Virus record (IMG/VR): IMGVR_UViG_3300024346_000126
Span: 1 to 46,211 of that record
Length of the DNA stretch: 46,211 bases
From: a virus
Direction: 5' to 3' (one strand)
Part shown: positions 4,672 to 20,121 of the stretch, one piece after another
Numbering within the stretch: position 1 is the stretch's first letter
Layout of the letters: each line of letters opens with the position of its first letter
The notes under the pieces: model-generated
The model's database searches: none
Seen by the model: only the letters and a program-made list of their open reading frames with translations
What the model was told of the DNA's origin: nothing
Program-made: the position numbers and the translations under genes

Positions 4672-4702
4672 CAAAAGTATGACTTTATTTTTTATTATCC
4701 AA
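4672..4702 (-). promoter_or_regulatory. Bacteroidota-type promoter (TTG-N20-TACTTTTG)
   Basis: TTG at 4700-4702 and TACTTTTG at 4672-4679 on the minus strand are 20 bases apart and lie 24 bases upstream of the 4645-4647 ATG. The -33 part overlaps the last codons of the acetyltransferase gene. Confidence 0.7.
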
Positions 4703-5116
4703 ACGCATTTGTATCTCTTTCTGGTAAAACCCATTTTTCTCATAAAATGGTACCAATTTTTCATCACAATTTAAAATAACCTTATAACATCGTAATTCTT
4801 TTGAGGATTCAACTAATTGGTTAACTAACATTTGTCCTAACCCTTTACCTCCGTGTGATTTTGATATACAAACATCCTCGATTTGTCCAACATATGAACC
4901 TCCACCGATTAGTTTTTCTAATACGTGTAATGTAGCCGTACCCACAATATATCCTTCACTCTCAACCACATATGTATGTATCGATGTGTTCTCCATTATT
5001 CTCCACCAATACCTAATTGGTTCTTTGGTTTCAATAAACGATTCGCTTAATAATTGACAAATTTCTTCTAAATCTTCGAAGACCGCCTTTCTAATATTAT
5101 AACTTTCCATATTCAT
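4685..5116 (-). CDS. GNAT acetyltransferase resembling glucosamine-6-phosphate N-acetyltransferase (GNA1)
   Basis: A 143-residue single-domain GNAT enzyme, presumably transferring acetyl from acetyl-CoA. The acetyl-CoA loop is GGKGLG (89-94). Three further segments match the eukaryotic GNA1 signature unusually well: GQIEDVCIS (77-85), CYKVILNCDEK (110-120) and FYEKNGFYQKEIQMRL (124-139). In yeast GNA1 the equivalents are GHIEDI, CYKIILDCDEK and FYEKCGF (from memory). GNA1 makes N-acetylglucosamine-6-phosphate on the route to UDP-GlcNAc, and length (about 145-165) also fits. Bacteria normally use GlmU instead. A phage copy could supply amino-sugar donors for the glycosyltransferases at 13152-21106. 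This link is inference, and another small amine could be the substrate. Confidence 0.75.
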   Translation of the reverse strand: MNMESYNIRKAVFEDLEEICQLLSESFIETKEPIRYWWRIMENTSIHTYVVESEGYIVGTATLHVLEKLIGGGSYVGQIEDVCISKSHGGKGLGQMLVNQLVESSKELRCYKVILNCDEKLVPFYEKNGFYQKEIQMRLDNKK

Positions 5117-5172: not shown

Positions 5173-6102
5173 TTATAGACTGAGTAACATCTCAATCAGT
5201 TTGGGTTGGGGAGACATATCTGACTTACCTTTTTTGGTATTCGTATGTGTCCACATACCCTTAATTCTACCATAATATGCGTCTGAATTCCATTCAAATG
5301 ATTCCAAACCATTTTTTTTATATTCACTAATTAACCCCTTTTGTATGTCAATACCATCTCTTTCTTTGATGTAAAGTATTAACTCCTTTAAAGACTCAAT
5401 TTGCTTGTCTGTGTATGCGTGCCACGCAGTATAACCTCTAAATTCCTCAGTAAACACAATATCCTCTTCACGTATTTTACTACCTGTGTATGCGTAATAA
5501 GAATCAGGGTCTCTATCCACCCAAACACGTTTACCATTAATTTTCTTTTTGTACCCACCTTTAGTTAGATAACCATAATTACAAACCTCAATACCTACTG
5601 AGTGTACGTGCATATGTTGTAAACCATTCTTACCCAAATGCCATGAATAACCCCCTTCAGGAAATGATTGAACTATCTCACCATCGTATTGGTCATCACC
5701 ATCAATTGACTTACCACCAATAACAAATTCAGTAGCAATTCTACCTCTACTGTCTCTACCCCAATGTATTATAGTTCGATATGGATTATTACCACCAGCA
5801 GTGTGGTGTAAAAATAAGTATTCTTTATCTACAGGTCCTTTATAATATTCACCGTCAGGTAAATAGGACTTATTGATAACTATTTCATCTGTTAACGCAA
5901 TTTCCGATATATCAGTAGTAGCAATACCCATAGCGTTCCAAGTGGAAGGACCAACAATACCATCAACAAATAGTCCTTTTGTCTTTTGCCATTCTTTAAC
6001 TGCTCTCTCAGTTTTTGGACCGAAATCTCCATCCATTGTAATACCGAGAAACTCTTGTATTTCTTTAACACTCTCACCTTTAGAACCTAATTTTAGTATC
6101 AT
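5173..6102 (-). CDS. Endolysin: peptidoglycan-binding domain plus N-acetylmuramoyl-L-alanine amidase
   Basis: A 309-residue lytic enzyme. Residues 1-58 form a PG_binding_1 module (LGSKGESVKEIQEFLG, DGDFGPKTERAVKEWQ, VDGIVGPSTWNAM). From about residue 93 there is an Amidase_2 zinc amidase: FLHHTAGG (H99 as first zinc ligand), SWHLGKNG (152-160), HSVGIEVCNYG (167-177) and AWHAYTDKQ (H228 as the probable second ligand). It should cleave the amide bond between MurNAc and L-Ala to release progeny. No signal peptide is seen, so export would need a holin. The gene overlaps the upstream lectin-like gene by four bases (ATGA), and a small membrane protein lies two genes upstream, giving a plausible lysis unit. 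Confidence 0.9.
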   Translation of the reverse strand: MILKLGSKGESVKEIQEFLGITMDGDFGPKTERAVKEWQKTKGLFVDGIVGPSTWNAMGIATTDISEIALTDEIVINKSYLPDGEYYKGPVDKEYLFLHHTAGGNNPYRTIIHWGRDSRGRIATEFVIGGKSIDGDDQYDGEIVQSFPEGGYSWHLGKNGLQHMHVHSVGIEVCNYGYLTKGGYKKKINGKRVWVDRDPDSYYAYTGSKIREEDIVFTEEFRGYTAWHAYTDKQIESLKELILYIKERDGIDIQKGLISEYKKNGLESFEWNSDAYYGRIKGMWTHTNTKKGKSDMSPQPKLIEMLLSL

Positions 6103-13151: not shown

Positions 13152-14603
13152 TCAGCCTAACATACTGAAAATTCCAAACCTTTCATATATGGTATTATAA
13201 ACCTCTGATGAAAAATGTGTATATCCATCGTTATTTTTTATATCTTTTATCGAATCTATAAATAGAACTTCATCATGTTTATTCGTTGATTTATAGTAAG
13301 CATCGTTAAACGGTCCTTCATAAAACTTTAATTTACCCACCGTTCTTAACTCACCGTTTGGTTCATAATCCGATTCAGAAACAAACCCAATAAGAATATC
13401 TTCTTTTACTTTTTGGGAATTTTCCATTCTAAATTCTCTGAAATAGTTAATATTATTGGTGTATAACACCTCAACAGTAATACCTATATAATCACCTGAC
13501 CTATGTAATAATAACATAAACTCTTCTAAATCTTTATCACTTATATTAACCCCTTCAGATGTTGATACAATTAAATCAATATCATTACCCAATATAGAAC
13601 CCCATATTGCAATATCAAATCGACTATCTTTAAGTGTCTTTACATTATCACCATACCACTTAGTAAATAATTCAGAACTTATCTTATCCCCCATATTTCT
13701 GGCGGTTGGTTTAACCCTTTGAGGTATTAAAGAGTTTCGGACCTTATCTCCTTCAAACGTTGTTAGGGAGAATAACTTTCCAAATTCAGGATAACCTAAC
13801 TCAATAATCTTTTCCTTAATAATATGGACGTATCTTTCTTTCGTCTGTGAATTACCGTGAGCCAATCGCTCTTTGTTATGACCTAAATGTACAAATGGTT
13901 CGTCACCATTAAACCTATAGTTTCCCCATTCATTTCTTTTAGACACTTTACCACAGTTATACTTATTATTTAAATAACCCAGGTTAACCTGTTCCATAAA
14001 AATAGTATACGAATCATATTCAAATTGACTTTCATATTCTATTGTTTTTATAGTGTCAACAACCTCTTTAGCGTTACGTAAAAATTCTGTTTTTAAATCA
14101 TAACTATTAAAAATTAATAAACTACCATTAACAATCTCAACACTGTCATCCACAGGTTGATAGAAACTTAAGTTTTTTAAACTATCTTTACGGTTAAACA
14201 TTTTATCTTTTAATTCTGAATCCCATAATTCATAATGATATGTTATCATATCATATTGTAACTTAGTAAATTCAGTGTTTCTAAAAAACGTATCGACATC
14301 AAATAAACAAACAGGTTCCCCAAATTCTTCTATTACTCGTATTTTATTGTACGACCAAAAACATTCGTGAATATCATTATCATAATTTCTAACCCTTATC
14401 TCATCATATAAATGACCAAAACCGTACTTGGTAACAAATTCATTAATTTTATCATCACAATATAGGTATAATGGATGTCCATCTCTTTTCCACGTTAATA
14501 TTGAATAAACCCACGTATATAACTCAACCGTACTAATGTCAGTATTTACGTTATAAATAAACCCCCTATTCTCATTACTAAAAACCGAATGTATACCTAT
14601 CAT
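13152..14603 (-). CDS. GT-A glycosyltransferase-like protein with possible nucleotidyltransferase domain
   Basis: Last gene of the glycosyltransferase cluster, 483 residues. The N-terminal half resembles GT-A-fold proteins of Bacteroidota (DUF6734-like layout): strand LYLYCDDKINEF, then EFGEPVCLFDVDTFF with a DxD motif (D102, D104) for metal and sugar nucleotide, then IVNGSLLIFNS (158-167). The C-terminal part contains FDIAIWGSILGNDIDLIV (329-346). Here GS followed by DID looks like the minimal nucleotidyltransferase signature, with a shorter gap than usual. A GT joined to a nucleotidyltransferase could activate and transfer a sugar, but the second domain is speculative. The start overlaps the upstream GT gene by four bases. 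Confidence 0.65.
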   Translation of the reverse strand: MIGIHSVFSNENRGFIYNVNTDISTVELYTWVYSILTWKRDGHPLYLYCDDKINEFVTKYGFGHLYDEIRVRNYDNDIHECFWSYNKIRVIEEFGEPVCLFDVDTFFRNTEFTKLQYDMITYHYELWDSELKDKMFNRKDSLKNLSFYQPVDDSVEIVNGSLLIFNSYDLKTEFLRNAKEVVDTIKTIEYESQFEYDSYTIFMEQVNLGYLNNKYNCGKVSKRNEWGNYRFNGDEPFVHLGHNKERLAHGNSQTKERYVHIIKEKIIELGYPEFGKLFSLTTFEGDKVRNSLIPQRVKPTARNMGDKISSELFTKWYGDNVKTLKDSRFDIAIWGSILGNDIDLIVSTSEGVNISDKDLEEFMLLLHRSGDYIGITVEVLYTNNINYFREFRMENSQKVKEDILIGFVSESDYEPNGELRTVGKLKFYEGPFNDAYYKSTNKHDEVLFIDSIKDIKNNDGYTHFSSEVYNTIYERFGIFSMLG

Positions 14604-16102
14604 ATTCTCACATCTTTAATAATTTCAGTTATTGATTTTTCCTTATAACAATAATCCAACACAAAAATACCTAACTCTCTTGCCGAGTATTGACATAAAT
14701 TCATTGTTTTAGTGAATTTATTATATATCTCCTCTAGCAATTGATAATGCCATTTAATATGAGCAACTTCAATCCAAGTATCCTCATTATCATTATAAGG
14801 TATTAAGACTCTCTCATCTTTTAAATTAAAATCATACATTTCGTTTAATACGACATGATGACCCACACCAATAATAACATAAGAACGCGTTAGTGGAATT
14901 TTAGACGCAGAACCATTTAACTTAAATCGTGTATAGTAAGTCCTAATTGGGAACTGTTTAAACATGTTATCATCCAATGGGACTATTAACCCATCTTCAG
15001 AAAACCTATCTATCATCCACCCGTTAACATAATTTGAGTCACTACTTATCACTTCCCTCACAAAATCTTGTGAGACATCAACAAATTCGTCAGCATCAAC
15101 ACACCACACCCATTCGTTCTCATCATCACATATTTCTCTCTTATATTTATTCTTTAGTTTACATTCCCACTCTGTCGTATATTTCTCATCCCAATGATGT
15201 ACAATCTCAGCGTTTTGTTTAACAAAGTCGTAAATAAAATTATCTTCCATACCGTAAGTATGAAAAATACAATAGAATTTGGTAACCCCTAAGTTTCTAT
15301 AATGAATGAAAAACTGCTTTAACATATTATAATCCTGAAGGGACCAAACAATAAACAATAACTTCATACCTAAAGGCTTGTCGTAGGTAATTATTCCATC
15401 ATAATCCAAAGACAACGCAACATTACATTCTTCTTTATAATCATCAGCACTTCCGTCATCTATTAATCTATTAGTCACTCTATCGTGTATAGTATAGATA
15501 ATATCACTATCCCATTTAAAGTGATTAACGTAACCATTTAAAGGGTGTTTTATTAACTTAACAACTTGTTCTTGTTCTCCAATGACATCGTGATAACCTA
15601 AACCAATAATGACTTCACGAACAGATAGAGGCACTTTAGATATCGCCCCCTCTAATAAACTATATGTAATAAAAGAATAATAGGGAAACGTTATTTCTAT
15701 GTCTTCTTCTATCGTAACCTCTTTAAGTGATGGTTTAGAAACTCTATCAATCAAACTAAACTTTACATAGTTCGCATCACTATCAACCACTTTATTTAAG
15801 TCATTAACACTAATATCTATAAATTCATCACAATCAACAGTAAACGACCATTCTCCATAACTTGAGAATTTTAACCTAGCATCATTTATGTGTTTTACTT
15901 TAATATGTTCATTAAAGACCCCGTCCCATATCTTAACAACCATGGCATTTTCCATCACATAATCTAAAACATCTTTAGTGTGTTCTTCATGCGCATGATA
16001 TATCGCATAAAAATTAGTTACCCCTAAATTTCTGTAATGTTTGAAAAAGTGGTGTAACTTAGGAATACTTTCTTTACTGTAAAAAGTAAAAAATAACTTC
16101 AT
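14600..16102 (-). CDS. Tandem-duplicated glycosyltransferase (two GT92/GT2-like domains)
   Basis: The 500-residue protein is an internal duplication. Each half starts with a strand and a conserved HYRNLGVT segment (22-29 and 268-275). About 65-70 residues later comes an acidic metal-binding motif: FTVDCDEFIDIS (D90, D92, E93) and WCVDADEFVDVS (D336, D338, E339). Both then have an SLIDR/WMIDR element and a V-I-I-G-(L/V)-G-(Y/H)-H motif (164-171 and the matching position of repeat 2). This layout fits the GT92 / glycosyltransferase family 2-like group. Both copies retain their acidic residues, so both may be active. Two catalytic domains could add alternating or successive sugars. No signal peptide is seen, so it should act in the cytoplasm. 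Confidence 0.75.
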   Translation of the reverse strand: MKLFFTFYSKESIPKLHHFFKHYRNLGVTNFYAIYHAHEEHTKDVLDYVMENAMVVKIWDGVFNEHIKVKHINDARLKFSSYGEWSFTVDCDEFIDISVNDLNKVVDSDANYVKFSLIDRVSKPSLKEVTIEEDIEITFPYYSFITYSLLEGAISKVPLSVREVIIGLGYHDVIGEQEQVVKLIKHPLNGYVNHFKWDSDIIYTIHDRVTNRLIDDGSADDYKEECNVALSLDYDGIITYDKPLGMKLLFIVWSLQDYNMLKQFFIHYRNLGVTKFYCIFHTYGMEDNFIYDFVKQNAEIVHHWDEKYTTEWECKLKNKYKREICDDENEWVWCVDADEFVDVSQDFVREVISSDSNYVNGWMIDRFSEDGLIVPLDDNMFKQFPIRTYYTRFKLNGSASKIPLTRSYVIIGVGHHVVLNEMYDFNLKDERVLIPYNDNEDTWIEVAHIKWHYQLLEEIYNKFTKTMNLCQYSARELGIFVLDYCYKEKSITEIIKDVRI

Positions 16103-16104
16103 CG

Positions 16105-17028
16105 TTAGAAATACTTACTTATAATACTTTGTTTATATTCACTGAATAAACTTTCGTAATTTTGTTTTGCGTTTTTTTCATATTCAAATTTACCTCCATT
16201 TACCATTTTTTTAACTATAAAAGGCTCTGGTATATTAAACTTACGACCGTGGTTCTCTAATATTAAAAATTTATTATTATAACATTGTTTAATATCCCAC
16301 CCTGATTTATTAAGAAAACGACAACATTCTTGAATCCAATGGTCATCAATACCATAAACCCCTAATTCTGTCGGTATGGTTACGTAATCGAAAATTGTTG
16401 TAGAAAAAACGTTAAACCATCCACCCCCAATCATAATGTCAGAAGTATATCCAACCTCATTTTTCTGAGTTTGGTGAAACCCATAAACACTCAAAGGGTT
16501 AATCTTAAAAGGAAATGACCTGTCAGTCACATTCTTAAATTTTTTATGTGTGAGACCATCAAAGTGTTCGTTCCACATCTTAGGTAATAAACCAGAGAAT
16601 ATAATAAATTCTCCCATCTCTTTTTCTAATGTTTTATATACATATTGAATCGCCGTTGGGTCAAAAAATATGTCACAATCAATAAAACTAATATAATCAA
16701 ACGTATCTTTGTATTCATTAATCACGTTTCTTCTAGTCGAATTAACTCCCCAATGCCCCGTATCTCTAACATTGTGTATTATATTTAAGTTCTTTCGAGA
16801 ATGTATTATGAAGTTTTGAAATAAATTATAAAAAGTTTCTTTAGTCATTTTAGAATTTGACCAATCATAATAGACATCCGAAAAATTCAAATCAATATAT
16901 AAGGTAACTCCCACATTTGAGTTTTCTTTTGTCGATATTTCAAAGTCTTTTATTATCCTACCAACATCTTGTATTTCTTCTGGCATGACGTGTAAAGCAT
17001 ACATTACAGTATAATCAGGTCTTTTCAT
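16105..17028 (-). CDS. GT-A glycosyltransferase (GT2-like)
   Basis: A 307-residue GT-A-fold enzyme. A donor-binding DxD appears in YISFIDCDIFFDP (D117, D119). The acceptor-side segment is MIGGGWFNVFSTTIFDYV followed by YGIDDHWIQECCRF, where the DDHW acidic pair is a likely catalytic-base region. The RDTGHWGVNSTRRNVINEY segment (88-106) corresponds to the helix region before the DxD in GT2 enzymes. There is no membrane helix. The donor sugar and acceptor cannot be predicted. It follows the 369-residue GT gene with a one-base stop/start overlap. Confidence 0.75.
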   Translation of the reverse strand: MKRPDYTVMYALHVMPEEIQDVGRIIKDFEISTKENSNVGVTLYIDLNFSDVYYDWSNSKMTKETFYNLFQNFIIHSRKNLNIIHNVRDTGHWGVNSTRRNVINEYKDTFDYISFIDCDIFFDPTAIQYVYKTLEKEMGEFIIFSGLLPKMWNEHFDGLTHKKFKNVTDRSFPFKINPLSVYGFHQTQKNEVGYTSDIMIGGGWFNVFSTTIFDYVTIPTELGVYGIDDHWIQECCRFLNKSGWDIKQCYNNKFLILENHGRKFNIPEPFIVKKMVNGGKFEYEKNAKQNYESLFSEYKQSIISKYF

Positions 17029-18137
17029 TATCTACTTAATTTATAATCTTCTACTATTTTATCATATAACTTTATTAGATTCATATTATAACAATGGTCT
17101 CCCTGTACAGGATGAATATAAGACAAAACATCTTCACTATTTTTCTCATTGCTCCAATACCTATCAAAATCATTCGCACCAACCCATCGTAAAAACCCTG
17201 TATTATTCATGTTCTCGATTTCATAATCGTGACCGAGACCCCACATCATCCAAACTGTTTCATCACAAAGTAATTCATCATATAAACAGGTCAATGCGTA
17301 TTTACCATAACCTGGTTCTCTAAATTGGTTTTTACCGTACACAAATAGACATGATAGGAACCAATTCTTATCATGGTCTACAAAATCAGTAAGTCTTTTT
17401 TCATCCGTATTCGCATTTCTGTAGAAATAGTTTTTATAATGTTCAGCCGGTATATTGGTGTTTAACGTATCTCTTCTTTGCCAAAACACTGAACTTGCCC
17501 AGTCAGGGTCTGGAGCCATAATAAGTCCGTCAAAACCTGAGTCATACAAATCTAACATTTGTTGATACACATTAGTTTTCTCACCTTTAGGGTGAAACCA
17601 AAATGCGTCTGTATCAACAACAGAAACCACATCATAGTTCTGTAAATGCGGATGGGAAGTTAAACCATATTTTAAAGACAACCCGTCATTAACAGGTATA
17701 ATAGAACCTTCAGGTAATAATCTGTCGATTAACGATGCTCCCACATCATTAACAAATCCTTTACCTAAAAATATTTTAACATCAAAATCTAAAATATCCG
17801 TATACACCAATTGCGATAAAATTGATAGATATAAAAACTTTAAATAGTTATGATTACCCCATACTTGATATACGACACATAATCTAGCGTTTTTTGCTCT
17901 TTTTGGTATATTACTATCATTCTCAAAAAACGGTAAATTATACCCATTCATTGTATGGAATTTCATATTATCACTAACACTCGAGTTTAGTAAATTAATT
18001 GCCCATTTTTCATTTGGTGATAGCGCAGTTCTTAGACATTCTTTCGCCTTTTCAATATCGTCAAAAGCTTCAATGTGTCTTAAAGCCTCAATAATACCTT
18101 CTTCTAATATTTCTTTATTGTATAACGGTTCCAACAT
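17028..18137 (-). CDS. Putative GT-A glycosyltransferase (369 aa)
   Basis: A 369-residue protein with a helical N-terminal region (1-60), then a Rossmann-like part: ARLCVVYQVWGNHNYLKFLY (84-103), FDVKIFLGKG, and VVSVVDTDAFW with a DxD motif (D175, D177). Downstream IMAPDPDWASSVFWQRRD and CDETVWMMWGLGHDYE (the C-terminal acidic region) fit a GT-A acceptor domain. No closer family is recognised. Position in an uninterrupted GT operon supports the call. The stop overlaps the next start by one base, so expression is likely coupled. Confidence 0.6.
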   Translation of the reverse strand: MLEPLYNKEILEEGIIEALRHIEAFDDIEKAKECLRTALSPNEKWAINLLNSSVSDNMKFHTMNGYNLPFFENDSNIPKRAKNARLCVVYQVWGNHNYLKFLYLSILSQLVYTDILDFDVKIFLGKGFVNDVGASLIDRLLPEGSIIPVNDGLSLKYGLTSHPHLQNYDVVSVVDTDAFWFHPKGEKTNVYQQMLDLYDSGFDGLIMAPDPDWASSVFWQRRDTLNTNIPAEHYKNYFYRNANTDEKRLTDFVDHDKNWFLSCLFVYGKNQFREPGYGKYALTCLYDELLCDETVWMMWGLGHDYEIENMNNTGFLRWVGANDFDRYWSNEKNSEDVLSYIHPVQGDHCYNMNLIKLYDKIVEDYKLSR

Positions 18138-18143
18138 AATTAT

Positions 18144-19097
18144 TTAATAATAAAACCAATCTGGTGTGATATTGTTATGACCGTGTTTCTTTAGAAAATC
18201 TATAATAATCTTTGGGAATTGTGGGTCGTATTTTCTGTCTCCTGTAAAATGTATTAACTTAGACTTGTTTACCGCCTCTTGTATTGGAGTGTCAAAGAAA
18301 TACCCTAACGCTCCACCTAACCTAAATAAATCTTTTGTCGCAAAACAGTGTAACATAATACTCATAAAACTTTGTTCTTGAGTATCGAATAAAACCTTAT
18401 CAGTATAATGGTAAGGTTCATCAATAGATTTTAAGTTTGGCGATTTGAAATCAAACAAAGATAATAACCCCATAAAATTATCTTTAAAAGAACTAAATAT
18501 CGATGAGGTTTCTATACCCATAAAACCAGCATTAGCACCAACACCCCTTACATTATTTCTATAATAATCAGGTGTTAAATCACGGTTAAAATAATTAGAT
18601 AACCCAACAAACATACTTTTGTCAGACATAGGGAAGTACTCTTCGTCAATAACAAATGGTGTCTTATTAGCTATTAAACCATCGATTTCATTTAACTCAG
18701 GACTAACCTTTTTATTAAACACGATATCATCATCATAAGACACTAAGTAATCGATACCTTTTTCAACATATAAATAAAAATACAACAGAAGATGATAAAT
18801 ATGTAAAAATCCTTTCATGTTATCAAAGACACTCTTATCTATAATATTATTACTATGGTACCATTGTTTTAATTCTTCTTTGGTATAAAACTCCACACTC
18901 ATCGGAAACCCTTCTCTATGTGGGTTATTAAGTTTTTCTATCTCCTTAGTCCAATCATCATCGTGTGTCCAATCGTCAATTAGAATATGTGCTTCTATTT
19001 CAAAGTCCCAAAATTCTTTAGATATTTGGAGTAATGAGAAGTACTGTTGTATGCCTCGTTTTGTCCACATTCGTGAAACTATTAATTTTCTATTCAT
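18144..19097 (-). CDS. Putative GT-A glycosyltransferase (317 aa)
   Basis: The 317-residue protein begins KLIVSRMWTKRGIQQYFSL and shows a GT-A donor site in YLVSYDDDIVFNKK (D122-D124). Downstream GANAGFMGIETSS (residues about 176-188) looks like the acceptor-binding loop, and the HFTGDRKYDPQFPK segment near the C-terminus is also typical of such enzymes (a conserved 'HF.G..KpW' in GT8-like families). This makes a GT8/GT-A assignment reasonable. The gene overlaps the GT-B gene upstream by eight bases. Confidence 0.65.
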   Translation of the reverse strand: MNRKLIVSRMWTKRGIQQYFSLLQISKEFWDFEIEAHILIDDWTHDDDWTKEIEKLNNPHREGFPMSVEFYTKEELKQWYHSNNIIDKSVFDNMKGFLHIYHLLLYFYLYVEKGIDYLVSYDDDIVFNKKVSPELNEIDGLIANKTPFVIDEEYFPMSDKSMFVGLSNYFNRDLTPDYYRNNVRGVGANAGFMGIETSSIFSSFKDNFMGLLSLFDFKSPNLKSIDEPYHYTDKVLFDTQEQSFMSIMLHCFATKDLFRLGGALGYFFDTPIQEAVNKSKLIHFTGDRKYDPQFPKIIIDFLKKHGHNNITPDWFYY

Positions 19098-20121
19098 TAT
19101 ATATTGTTTTCATTCTTTCAACCCAATGGTCTTTATTATCAAATTTCTTTAAAAATTCTTTTGCCGAATTAAAGATATTTTTTCTTGTTTCTTTGTTTGT
19201 CTTTTGTATTAACTTAACCATATTTTCAAACTCTTCCTTACTCGACGCTCGATACGGATAGTTAAACTCAGGACACCACCCTTTAGATATTATAGGTAAT
19301 TTACCAGCATCAACGGCTTGGAGAATTGAATACCCAAATGGTTCTTTAACATAAGCACCATGGAATATACCGAACAGACTACTATTGTAATATTCATCTG
19401 TTAAGTTTGGATTATACTCAATGATTTTAGTATTGTTGAACTTCATTTTAGTGTTTTTCTCCCATATCTTAACACCATTACTTGATGTAAAAGCATTGGA
19501 CCTAACATTCTCCAAAAAATGAATCGCTTTTCTTGTTTCTGCCCTTGCAGCAAACCCAACCACATTACTATGAAAATATTCCTTATTCCATATAAACTCA
19601 TAATAATTTGGTATTGTTATACAGTCGTTAAAAATATCATTAACTAAACCCTTTTGTGAACCGACCCAATATTTAGTTTCACACTCACGGATTAATTCGT
19701 CTTGCCATTCAACATTCCATAAAAAAGGGACTGAATCTCTTGAGAACCCTAACTCCTTATAAGAATTAACTATCTCTCTGGCGTATGCGTGAACCGCAAT
19801 ACTCTTAAACTTAAACCTATACTTCCATAAGTGAGGTCTTTTAGTGTAATGATTATGTAAGAAGTGAATGTGTCGACATTCCTGTAATAATCTTTTAGTT
19901 TCATCAGGTCTTTCGTTATAGAAAATATGTTCTATTGGTATTGAGTCCTCTTCAAACCCTTGGAATCTATAATTATCAATAAGTAGAATTGGTTTAATAT
20001 CCAAATGTTTAGGTATTAACTTTAACCAATTATTAACCCATACGTCTGAACCACCACCGACTGTGTTACCAGCACCTGTGGTTATATATATGTCAAATAT
20101 TTTACTTTTACGTCTTCGCAT
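19090..20121 (-). CDS. GT-B glycosyltransferase (GT4-like)
   Basis: The only GT-B-fold member of the cluster, 343 residues. The N-terminal lobe has the glycine-rich loop TTGAGNTVGGGSDVWVNNWL (14-33). The C-terminal lobe begins VVGFAARAETRKAIHFLE (187-204), with a basic residue pair for donor phosphate binding, and contains VKEPFGYSILQAVDAGKLPI (258-277). This is the GT4 donor-ribose site, where E260 is retained but the second glutamate of E-x7-E is a glutamine (Q268). That substitution occurs in some active GT4 enzymes. It would be a retaining enzyme using a nucleotide sugar. It is the second gene of the GT operon. Confidence 0.8.
   Translation of the reverse strand: MRRRKSKIFDIYITTGAGNTVGGGSDVWVNNWLKLIPKHLDIKPILLIDNYRFQGFEEDSIPIEHIFYNERPDETKRLLQECRHIHFLHNHYTKRPHLWKYRFKFKSIAVHAYAREIVNSYKELGFSRDSVPFLWNVEWQDELIRECETKYWVGSQKGLVNDIFNDCITIPNYYEFIWNKEYFHSNVVGFAARAETRKAIHFLENVRSNAFTSSNGVKIWEKNTKMKFNNTKIIEYNPNLTDEYYNSSLFGIFHGAYVKEPFGYSILQAVDAGKLPIISKGWCPEFNYPYRASSKEEFENMVKLIQKTNKETRKNIFNSAKEFLKKFDNKDHWVERMKTIYNE

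Follow-up and report, generated by a model that had tools for sequence, protein, structure and literature searches.

The stretch of DNA under study (the window) is a 46,211-base virus record from IMG/VR and is probably a fragment. It holds an open reading frame that is separated by 56 bases from the preceding amidase endolysin gene (5173–6102), has no internal stop, and is followed by two small genes of no assigned function. This reading frame and a glycosyltransferase gene of the same window are located as follows:

4685..5116, minus strand: predicted GNA1-family glucosamine-6-phosphate (GlcN-6-P) N-acetyltransferase gene, ATG start, 143 aa plus stop
14600..16102, minus strand: glycosyltransferase family 2 (GT2) gene (Glyco_tranf_2_4), over the Pfam cut-off

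Between the endolysin and GNA1 genes, a hairpin and then a T-rich stretch can be seen by eye, and this element is absent from the terminator scan list. Elsewhere the window encodes a ribonucleotide reductase, a baseplate wedge protein, a primase, RuvC, an SbcD-like nuclease and a 2OG oxygenase, and it contains no tRNA genes. Since its NrdA is closest to those of Tenacibaculum phages pT24 and Larrie and of Cellulophaga phages (57–52%), and since Flavobacterium phages account for four of the six phage records whose baseplate wedge protein is similar (28%), the phage host is likely a flavobacterium. The initial annotation had suggested that the acetyltransferase might feed a glycosyltransferase cassette. 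A six-gene run (13152–20121) holds the clear GT2 gene, two marginal glycosyltransferase matches and three genes without a match; these glycosyltransferase genes are ∼9.5 kb away from GNA1, and endolysin, nuclease and primase genes separate them from it. A role of the GT2 enzyme as a UDP-sugar consumer linked to the phage GNA1 is possible. The GNA1 gene does not sit in a UDP-GlcNAc pathway cassette: it has no other pathway genes beside it, and the 46,211-base record, probably a fragment, gives no SIS (glmS) match and no NTP_transferase match.

The encoded protein is an intact GNAT enzyme of the GNA1 family. It matches PF00583 at 64.4 bits (cut-off 20.7), and in a phmmer search of the PDB the eukaryotic GNA1 entries outrank all others, with Trypanosoma brucei 3fb3 at 2.4e-20, yeast at 4.6e-16, A. 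fumigatus at 8.5e-14, human GNA1 at 4e-13, Arabidopsis at 6.6e-13 and C. elegans at 8.9e-10; the best differently named entry, 6yug (1.9e-7), also carries the title C. parvum GNA1. These matches are far beyond chance and, as had been proposed from three short segments of the protein (GQIEDV, CYKVILNCDEK and FYEKNGF, all of which are present), place it closer to eukaryotic GNA1 than to generic GNATs. Identity to the eukaryotic enzymes is 28–38% over 126–135 columns. A profile built from viral and prokaryotic relatives only also retrieves GNA1 entries first (2.3e-35 to 8.1e-26), followed by 2dxq at 1.4e-23. Assignment as a generic GNAT was rejected because the NCBIfam models score far under cut-off (best PRK07757, 41 bits vs 154) while GNA1 structures rank first.

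The fold agrees with this assignment. An AlphaFold2 model of the monomer (pLDDT 90.4, pTM 0.86) returned GNA1 in all of the top 13 Foldseek rows, with 3fb3 the best at 1.2e-12. VIA-align gave Z scores of 17.5–18.9 for GNA1 structures, and 2dxq and 1z4e, two proteins of unassigned function, tie with them at 18.7 and 18.8, so the identity is decided by sequence rather than fold. In BFVD, the top match (28%) is to a 447-aa protein of Yasminevirus that bears the name UDP-N-acetylglucosamine diphosphorylase, and ordinary GNATs come next.

The initial annotation called for inspection of the GlcN-6-P pocket, and here the C. elegans enzyme (CeGNA1) provides the reference. The available text of PMC3413214 describes E104, D105, V106, K136, C141, Y149 and M161 as lining the site: E104 and D105 bind hydroxyls of the sugar, the backbone of D105 and V106 the acetyl group, and K136 together with R164 the phosphate; Y149 stabilizes the thiolate leaving group, and C141 is conserved in the active site though dispensable for catalysis. 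All seven site-lining residues are matched in the alignment of the phage protein (E80, D81, V82, K112, C117, Y125 and M137), in which the segment CYKVILNCDEK spans residues 110–120. From the alignment and PMC3413214, the site maps onto the window as follows:

4871..4888, minus strand: GQIEDV, residues 77–82; E80, D81 and V82 correspond to CeGNA1 E104, D105 and V106
4781..4789, minus strand: CYK, residues 110–112; K112 corresponds to CeGNA1 K136, the phosphate-binding lysine
4766..4768, minus strand: C117, corresponding to CeGNA1 C141, the cysteine non-essential for catalysis
4727..4747, minus strand: FYEKNGF, residues 124–130; Y125 corresponds to CeGNA1 Y149 (thiolate)
4703..4708, minus strand: M137-R138; M137 corresponds to CeGNA1 M161, and R138 stands at the Arg position of T. 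brucei GNA1

The catalytic and sugar-site residues compared are retained, the presumed phosphate-binding arginine is displaced, and neither a missing pocket nor a closest kinship to amino-acid or peptide acetyltransferases was found. Whereas CeGNA1 R164 comes three residues after the methionine, the phage R138 comes one after it, two positions earlier, as in T. brucei GNA1 (3fb3), with which the phage protein has the M-R-L-D ending in common; R138 may replace R164 in phosphate binding. In the main flavobacterial clade, the eight rows carry an Arg or Lys three positions past a Met or Leu, and the active-site Cys gives way to Ser, Thr or Ala. At position 116 the phage protein has Asn where the five eukaryotic rows have Asp or Glu; the CeGNA1 residue at this position, Glu140, makes a backbone contact only (PMC3413214). 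Lys occupies position 112 in 36 of the 38 GNA1-side rows, the other 2 having Arg, and in none of the 10 other GNATs, a contrast that is partly selected because the CYK and FYE motifs were the search patterns for most rows (the eukaryotic rows and L058–L064 were fetched without them).

A search of viral contigs with the single phage protein found no relative; a three-row profile later gave 14 matches among IMG/VR viral contigs and 34 among genome contigs. The best 10 of the 34 were GNA1-like by eye and comprised five DPANN archaea, one Nitrosopumilaceae, three flavobacteria and one bacterium; 21 of the 34 were translated, and 13 weak matches (L036, L038–L040, L042–L046 and L048–L051) were left out. 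The phage collection contributed two matches, both in huge phages. The tree was built from 47 rows, leaving out L007, L009 and L057 as copies of kept rows and L029 as partial. The nearest relatives are the phage contigs L004–L006, which are 46–48% identical to the window copy and form a phage clade with it (support 98/95). This clade is placed beside eight flavobacterial proteins (84/87), themselves a clade at 96/93. The separation between the GNA1 side and the ten other GNATs (87/91) is without firm support, and because a constraint joining the window clade to these ten outgroup GNATs was tolerated (p-AU 0.364), the rooting of the GNA1 side is uncertain. A constraint grouping the window clade with the five eukaryotic GNA1s was rejected (p-AU 0.007), and with it a eukaryotic donor of the phage gene. 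On this tree, then, the nearest cellular relatives of the phage GNA1 appear to be flavobacterial and not eukaryotic, so that the label ‘eukaryotic type’ holds for the family, GNA1 structures being the best matches, but not for the origin. Separately, one contig titled actinobacterium (L029, CAIMCU010000124.1) carries a partial GNA1 that looks eukaryotic by eye and may represent eukaryotic contamination of the bin.

The genes around these relatives point to hexosamine metabolism. Within the flavobacterial clade, GNA1 stands directly before glmS in seven of eight loci (L019, L024, L025, L059, L060, L061 and L062), while the available DNA of the L058 locus shows no glmS beside it. In the archaeal group, a phosphosugar mutase and a nucleotidyltransferase adjoin GNA1 in five of seven loci (L018, L020, L022, L023 and L026), a nucleotidyltransferase alone is near it in L021, and L027 has neither. 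A Nanoarchaeia contig (L020, 457–4877) carries glmS, GNA1, phosphosugar mutase and nucleotidyltransferase genes in a row, which by sequence would constitute a whole UDP-GlcNAc gene set in the eukaryotic order. The phage contig L011 (1584–6379) has GNA1 followed by a GlmS-like gene (530 aa), one gene of no assigned function, an FkbM methyltransferase and a GDP-mannose dehydratase, with head protease and terminase genes further along; the L008 record also has a GlmS-like gene, and the huge phage LR756511.1 has a nucleotidyltransferase 6.4 kb away from its GNA1. Three further contigs (L014–L016), which we guess to be giant-virus pieces, surround GNA1 with genes for sugar dehydratases or epimerases, aminotransferases, methyltransferases or glycosyltransferases. 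The phage records closest to the window (L004–L007) include neither glmS nor NTP_transferase in any of the four, and in L004 the gene sits between phoH and RNase HII genes rather than sugar genes.

The initial annotation stated that bacteria normally acetylate at glucosamine-1-phosphate with GlmU. We surveyed 199 flavobacterial genomes from the family of G021 with the Bacteroidota GlmU model (TIGR03991) and with a GNA1 profile (A2 at 1e-20). TIGR03991 scored over cut-off in 177 genomes and left 22 without. The GNA1 profile matched 10 genomes, nine strongly (105 bits or more) and one weakly (G177, 76 bits); all nine strong genomes fall among the 22 without Bacteroidota GlmU, and the weak match is in a GlmU-bearing genome. 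Fisher's test of strong GNA1 against GlmU absence gives 4.4e-10 (4.2e-9 with G177 added), and 2.0e-4 when restricted to genomes no larger than 2.2 Mb (9/0 vs 8/20, counted by eye with G211 left out), values that overstate independence because the genomes are related and whose strength is also limited by incomplete MAGs. Small genome size does not explain the absence, because GlmU occurs in 20 genomes within that 2.2-Mb limit; a further 13 GNA1-negative genomes also lack it. Two additional GNA1 genomes from the contig search (G016 and G022) are likewise without GlmU, and the Bacteroidota model is over cut-off in none of the eight genomes behind the main flavobacterial clade (G016, G021, G022, G044, G089, G173, G202 and G209; loci L019, L024, L025 and L058–L062).

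Canonical GlmU (TIGR01173) was over cut-off in none of 30 genomes. A eukaryote-type UDP-GlcNAc pyrophosphorylase (PF01704) was likewise over cut-off in none of 29, with a single weak match in the GlmU-bearing G088; the 14 control genomes also gave none, so this search had no positive control. Two divergent GNA1-like proteins, L064 (G079) and L063 (G091), have CYR for CYK (Arg for Lys) and fall outside the main flavobacterial clade; their genomes also lack GlmU, and the available DNA of both loci shows no glmS near GNA1. Together with G160, assigned by similar score only, G079 and G091 seem to be another, more divergent GNA1 subgroup, which makes up three of the nine strong-match genomes.

GNA1 thus apparently replaces GlmU, an essential step, in GNA1-bearing flavobacteria. 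Considering the flavobacterial glmS context and GlmU absence together with the mutase and nucleotidyltransferase context in DPANN archaea, GNA1 appears from these gene contents to be an existing prokaryotic route. The premise that bacteria use GlmU stands for most of the family (177 of 199) but apparently fails for these flavobacteria, so the ‘separate route’ expected from it may be mistaken where the phage's own host is concerned. A route derived from eukaryotes or foreign to bacteria is likewise unsupported, given that the nearest cellular relatives are flavobacterial, usually next to glmS and in genomes without Bacteroidota GlmU.

From the observed family, fold, site residues, nearest relatives, context of those relatives and GlmU absence, we consider it probable that the phage GNA1 acetylates GlcN-6-P to GlcNAc-6-P and so keeps or raises UDP-GlcNAc flow in a GNA1-type flavobacterial host; the substrate, the direction of flux, the use of the product and the GNA1-type host are what we infer. 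The enzyme would convert GlcN-6-P and acetyl-CoA to GlcNAc-6-P and CoA through a ternary complex in which the attack is direct, the mechanism that PMC3413214 describes for other GNA1 enzymes, in a host that already relies on GNA1, encoded beside GlmS, rather than on GlmU. It would supplement the host GNA1, such that flow to GlcNAc-1-phosphate and UDP-GlcNAc is kept or raised in infection. UDP-GlcNAc as the end of this flow is suggested by the hexosamine gene sets of the relatives, and it could serve to glycosylate phage parts or to maintain wall precursors until lysis.

If the host were instead a GlmU bacterium, the enzyme could act by diversion: GlmM would handle GlcNAc-6-P poorly, and phage-made GlcNAc-6-P that the host mutase could hardly use would lower wall synthesis or alter amino-sugar signaling. 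The survey makes a GlmU host the default assumption, and the window GNA1 has no glmS or nucleotidyltransferase, yet the phage clade stands beside the flavobacterial GNA1 clade, and in L011 glmS comes straight after the phage GNA1, an arrangement that speaks for synthesis, which leaves diversion unlikely. We assign a smaller probability still to a GNA1-derived enzyme that acetylates some other amine (a free amino sugar, a nucleotide-sugar amine, an antibiotic or a peptide). GNATs readily change substrate, and the displaced phosphate Arg, the N116 substitution and the fold scores tied with two proteins of no assigned function would fit such a shift, but the Glu-Asp-Val, phosphate Lys, Tyr and Met are all retained, T. 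brucei GNA1 has the identical ending, and N116-bearing relatives sit in hexosamine gene sets. That the gene is a passenger from a flavobacterial host, of no benefit to the phage, is very improbable: its placement beside flavobacterial genes and the lack of pathway neighbors in the window would suit a passenger, but the gene is intact in all four related phage records (L004–L007), and 46–48% identity is a long branch for a passenger, yet the catalytic residues are unchanged in the three read in the tree.

The phage enzyme has parallels among known systems. Eukaryotic GNA1 enzymes (1i1d, 4ag7, 2vxk, 3t90 and 3fb3) have the same GNAT fold, Glu-Asp-Val, phosphate Lys and thiolate Tyr, and the phage protein differs from them in its Asn116 and in falling outside their clade. 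GlmU and its Bacteroidota form, like GNA1, supply N-acetylglucosamine phosphate for UDP-GlcNAc; GlmU is a left-handed beta-helix enzyme acting on GlcN-1-P, with a fold unrelated to GNA1. Among viruses, Mimivirus L316 is a GNA1 with measured activity that prefers GlcN-6-P fivefold over GlcN-1-P, and its closest cellular homologues are reported to include the archaeon Nitrosopumilus (PMC9614988). Mimivirus, a giant virus of amoebae, encodes two more pathway enzymes (L619 and R689), whereas the phage fragment shows none; L316 is compared here by its description in the available text. ORF40 of phage DSL-LC06, from a lake metagenome, was annotated as GNA1 in 2023 with a similar idea of nucleotide-sugar supply (PMC10611076); it is a GNA1 by annotation only, is likened to the window gene by description in the available text, and is not among our two matches in the phage collection. 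Because the Mimivirus enzyme is proven and a phage GNA1 was already annotated, the phage gene is not the first of its kind. In the open-licence literature, PMC10611076, in its available text, was the one paper found naming a phage GNA1, and no description of a flavobacterial GNA1 replacing GlmU was found.

The apparent replacement of GlmU in flavobacteria is a more interesting result than the phage gene. We tentatively propose, at somewhat less than even confidence, that small-genome marine flavobacteria have swapped GlmU for a GNA1 placed before glmS, making UDP-GlcNAc by the eukaryotic step order, and that the sister GNA1 of the phage sustains this step in infection. The ‘eukaryotic’ GNA1 step is an ordinary prokaryotic and viral option, found in phages, giant-virus-like contigs, DPANN archaea and flavobacteria. 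Should the swap in marine flavobacteria prove real, these ocean bacteria would have exchanged an essential step of wall-precursor synthesis, their phages would carry the replaced enzyme, and a phage GNA1 gene could hint at the type of host.
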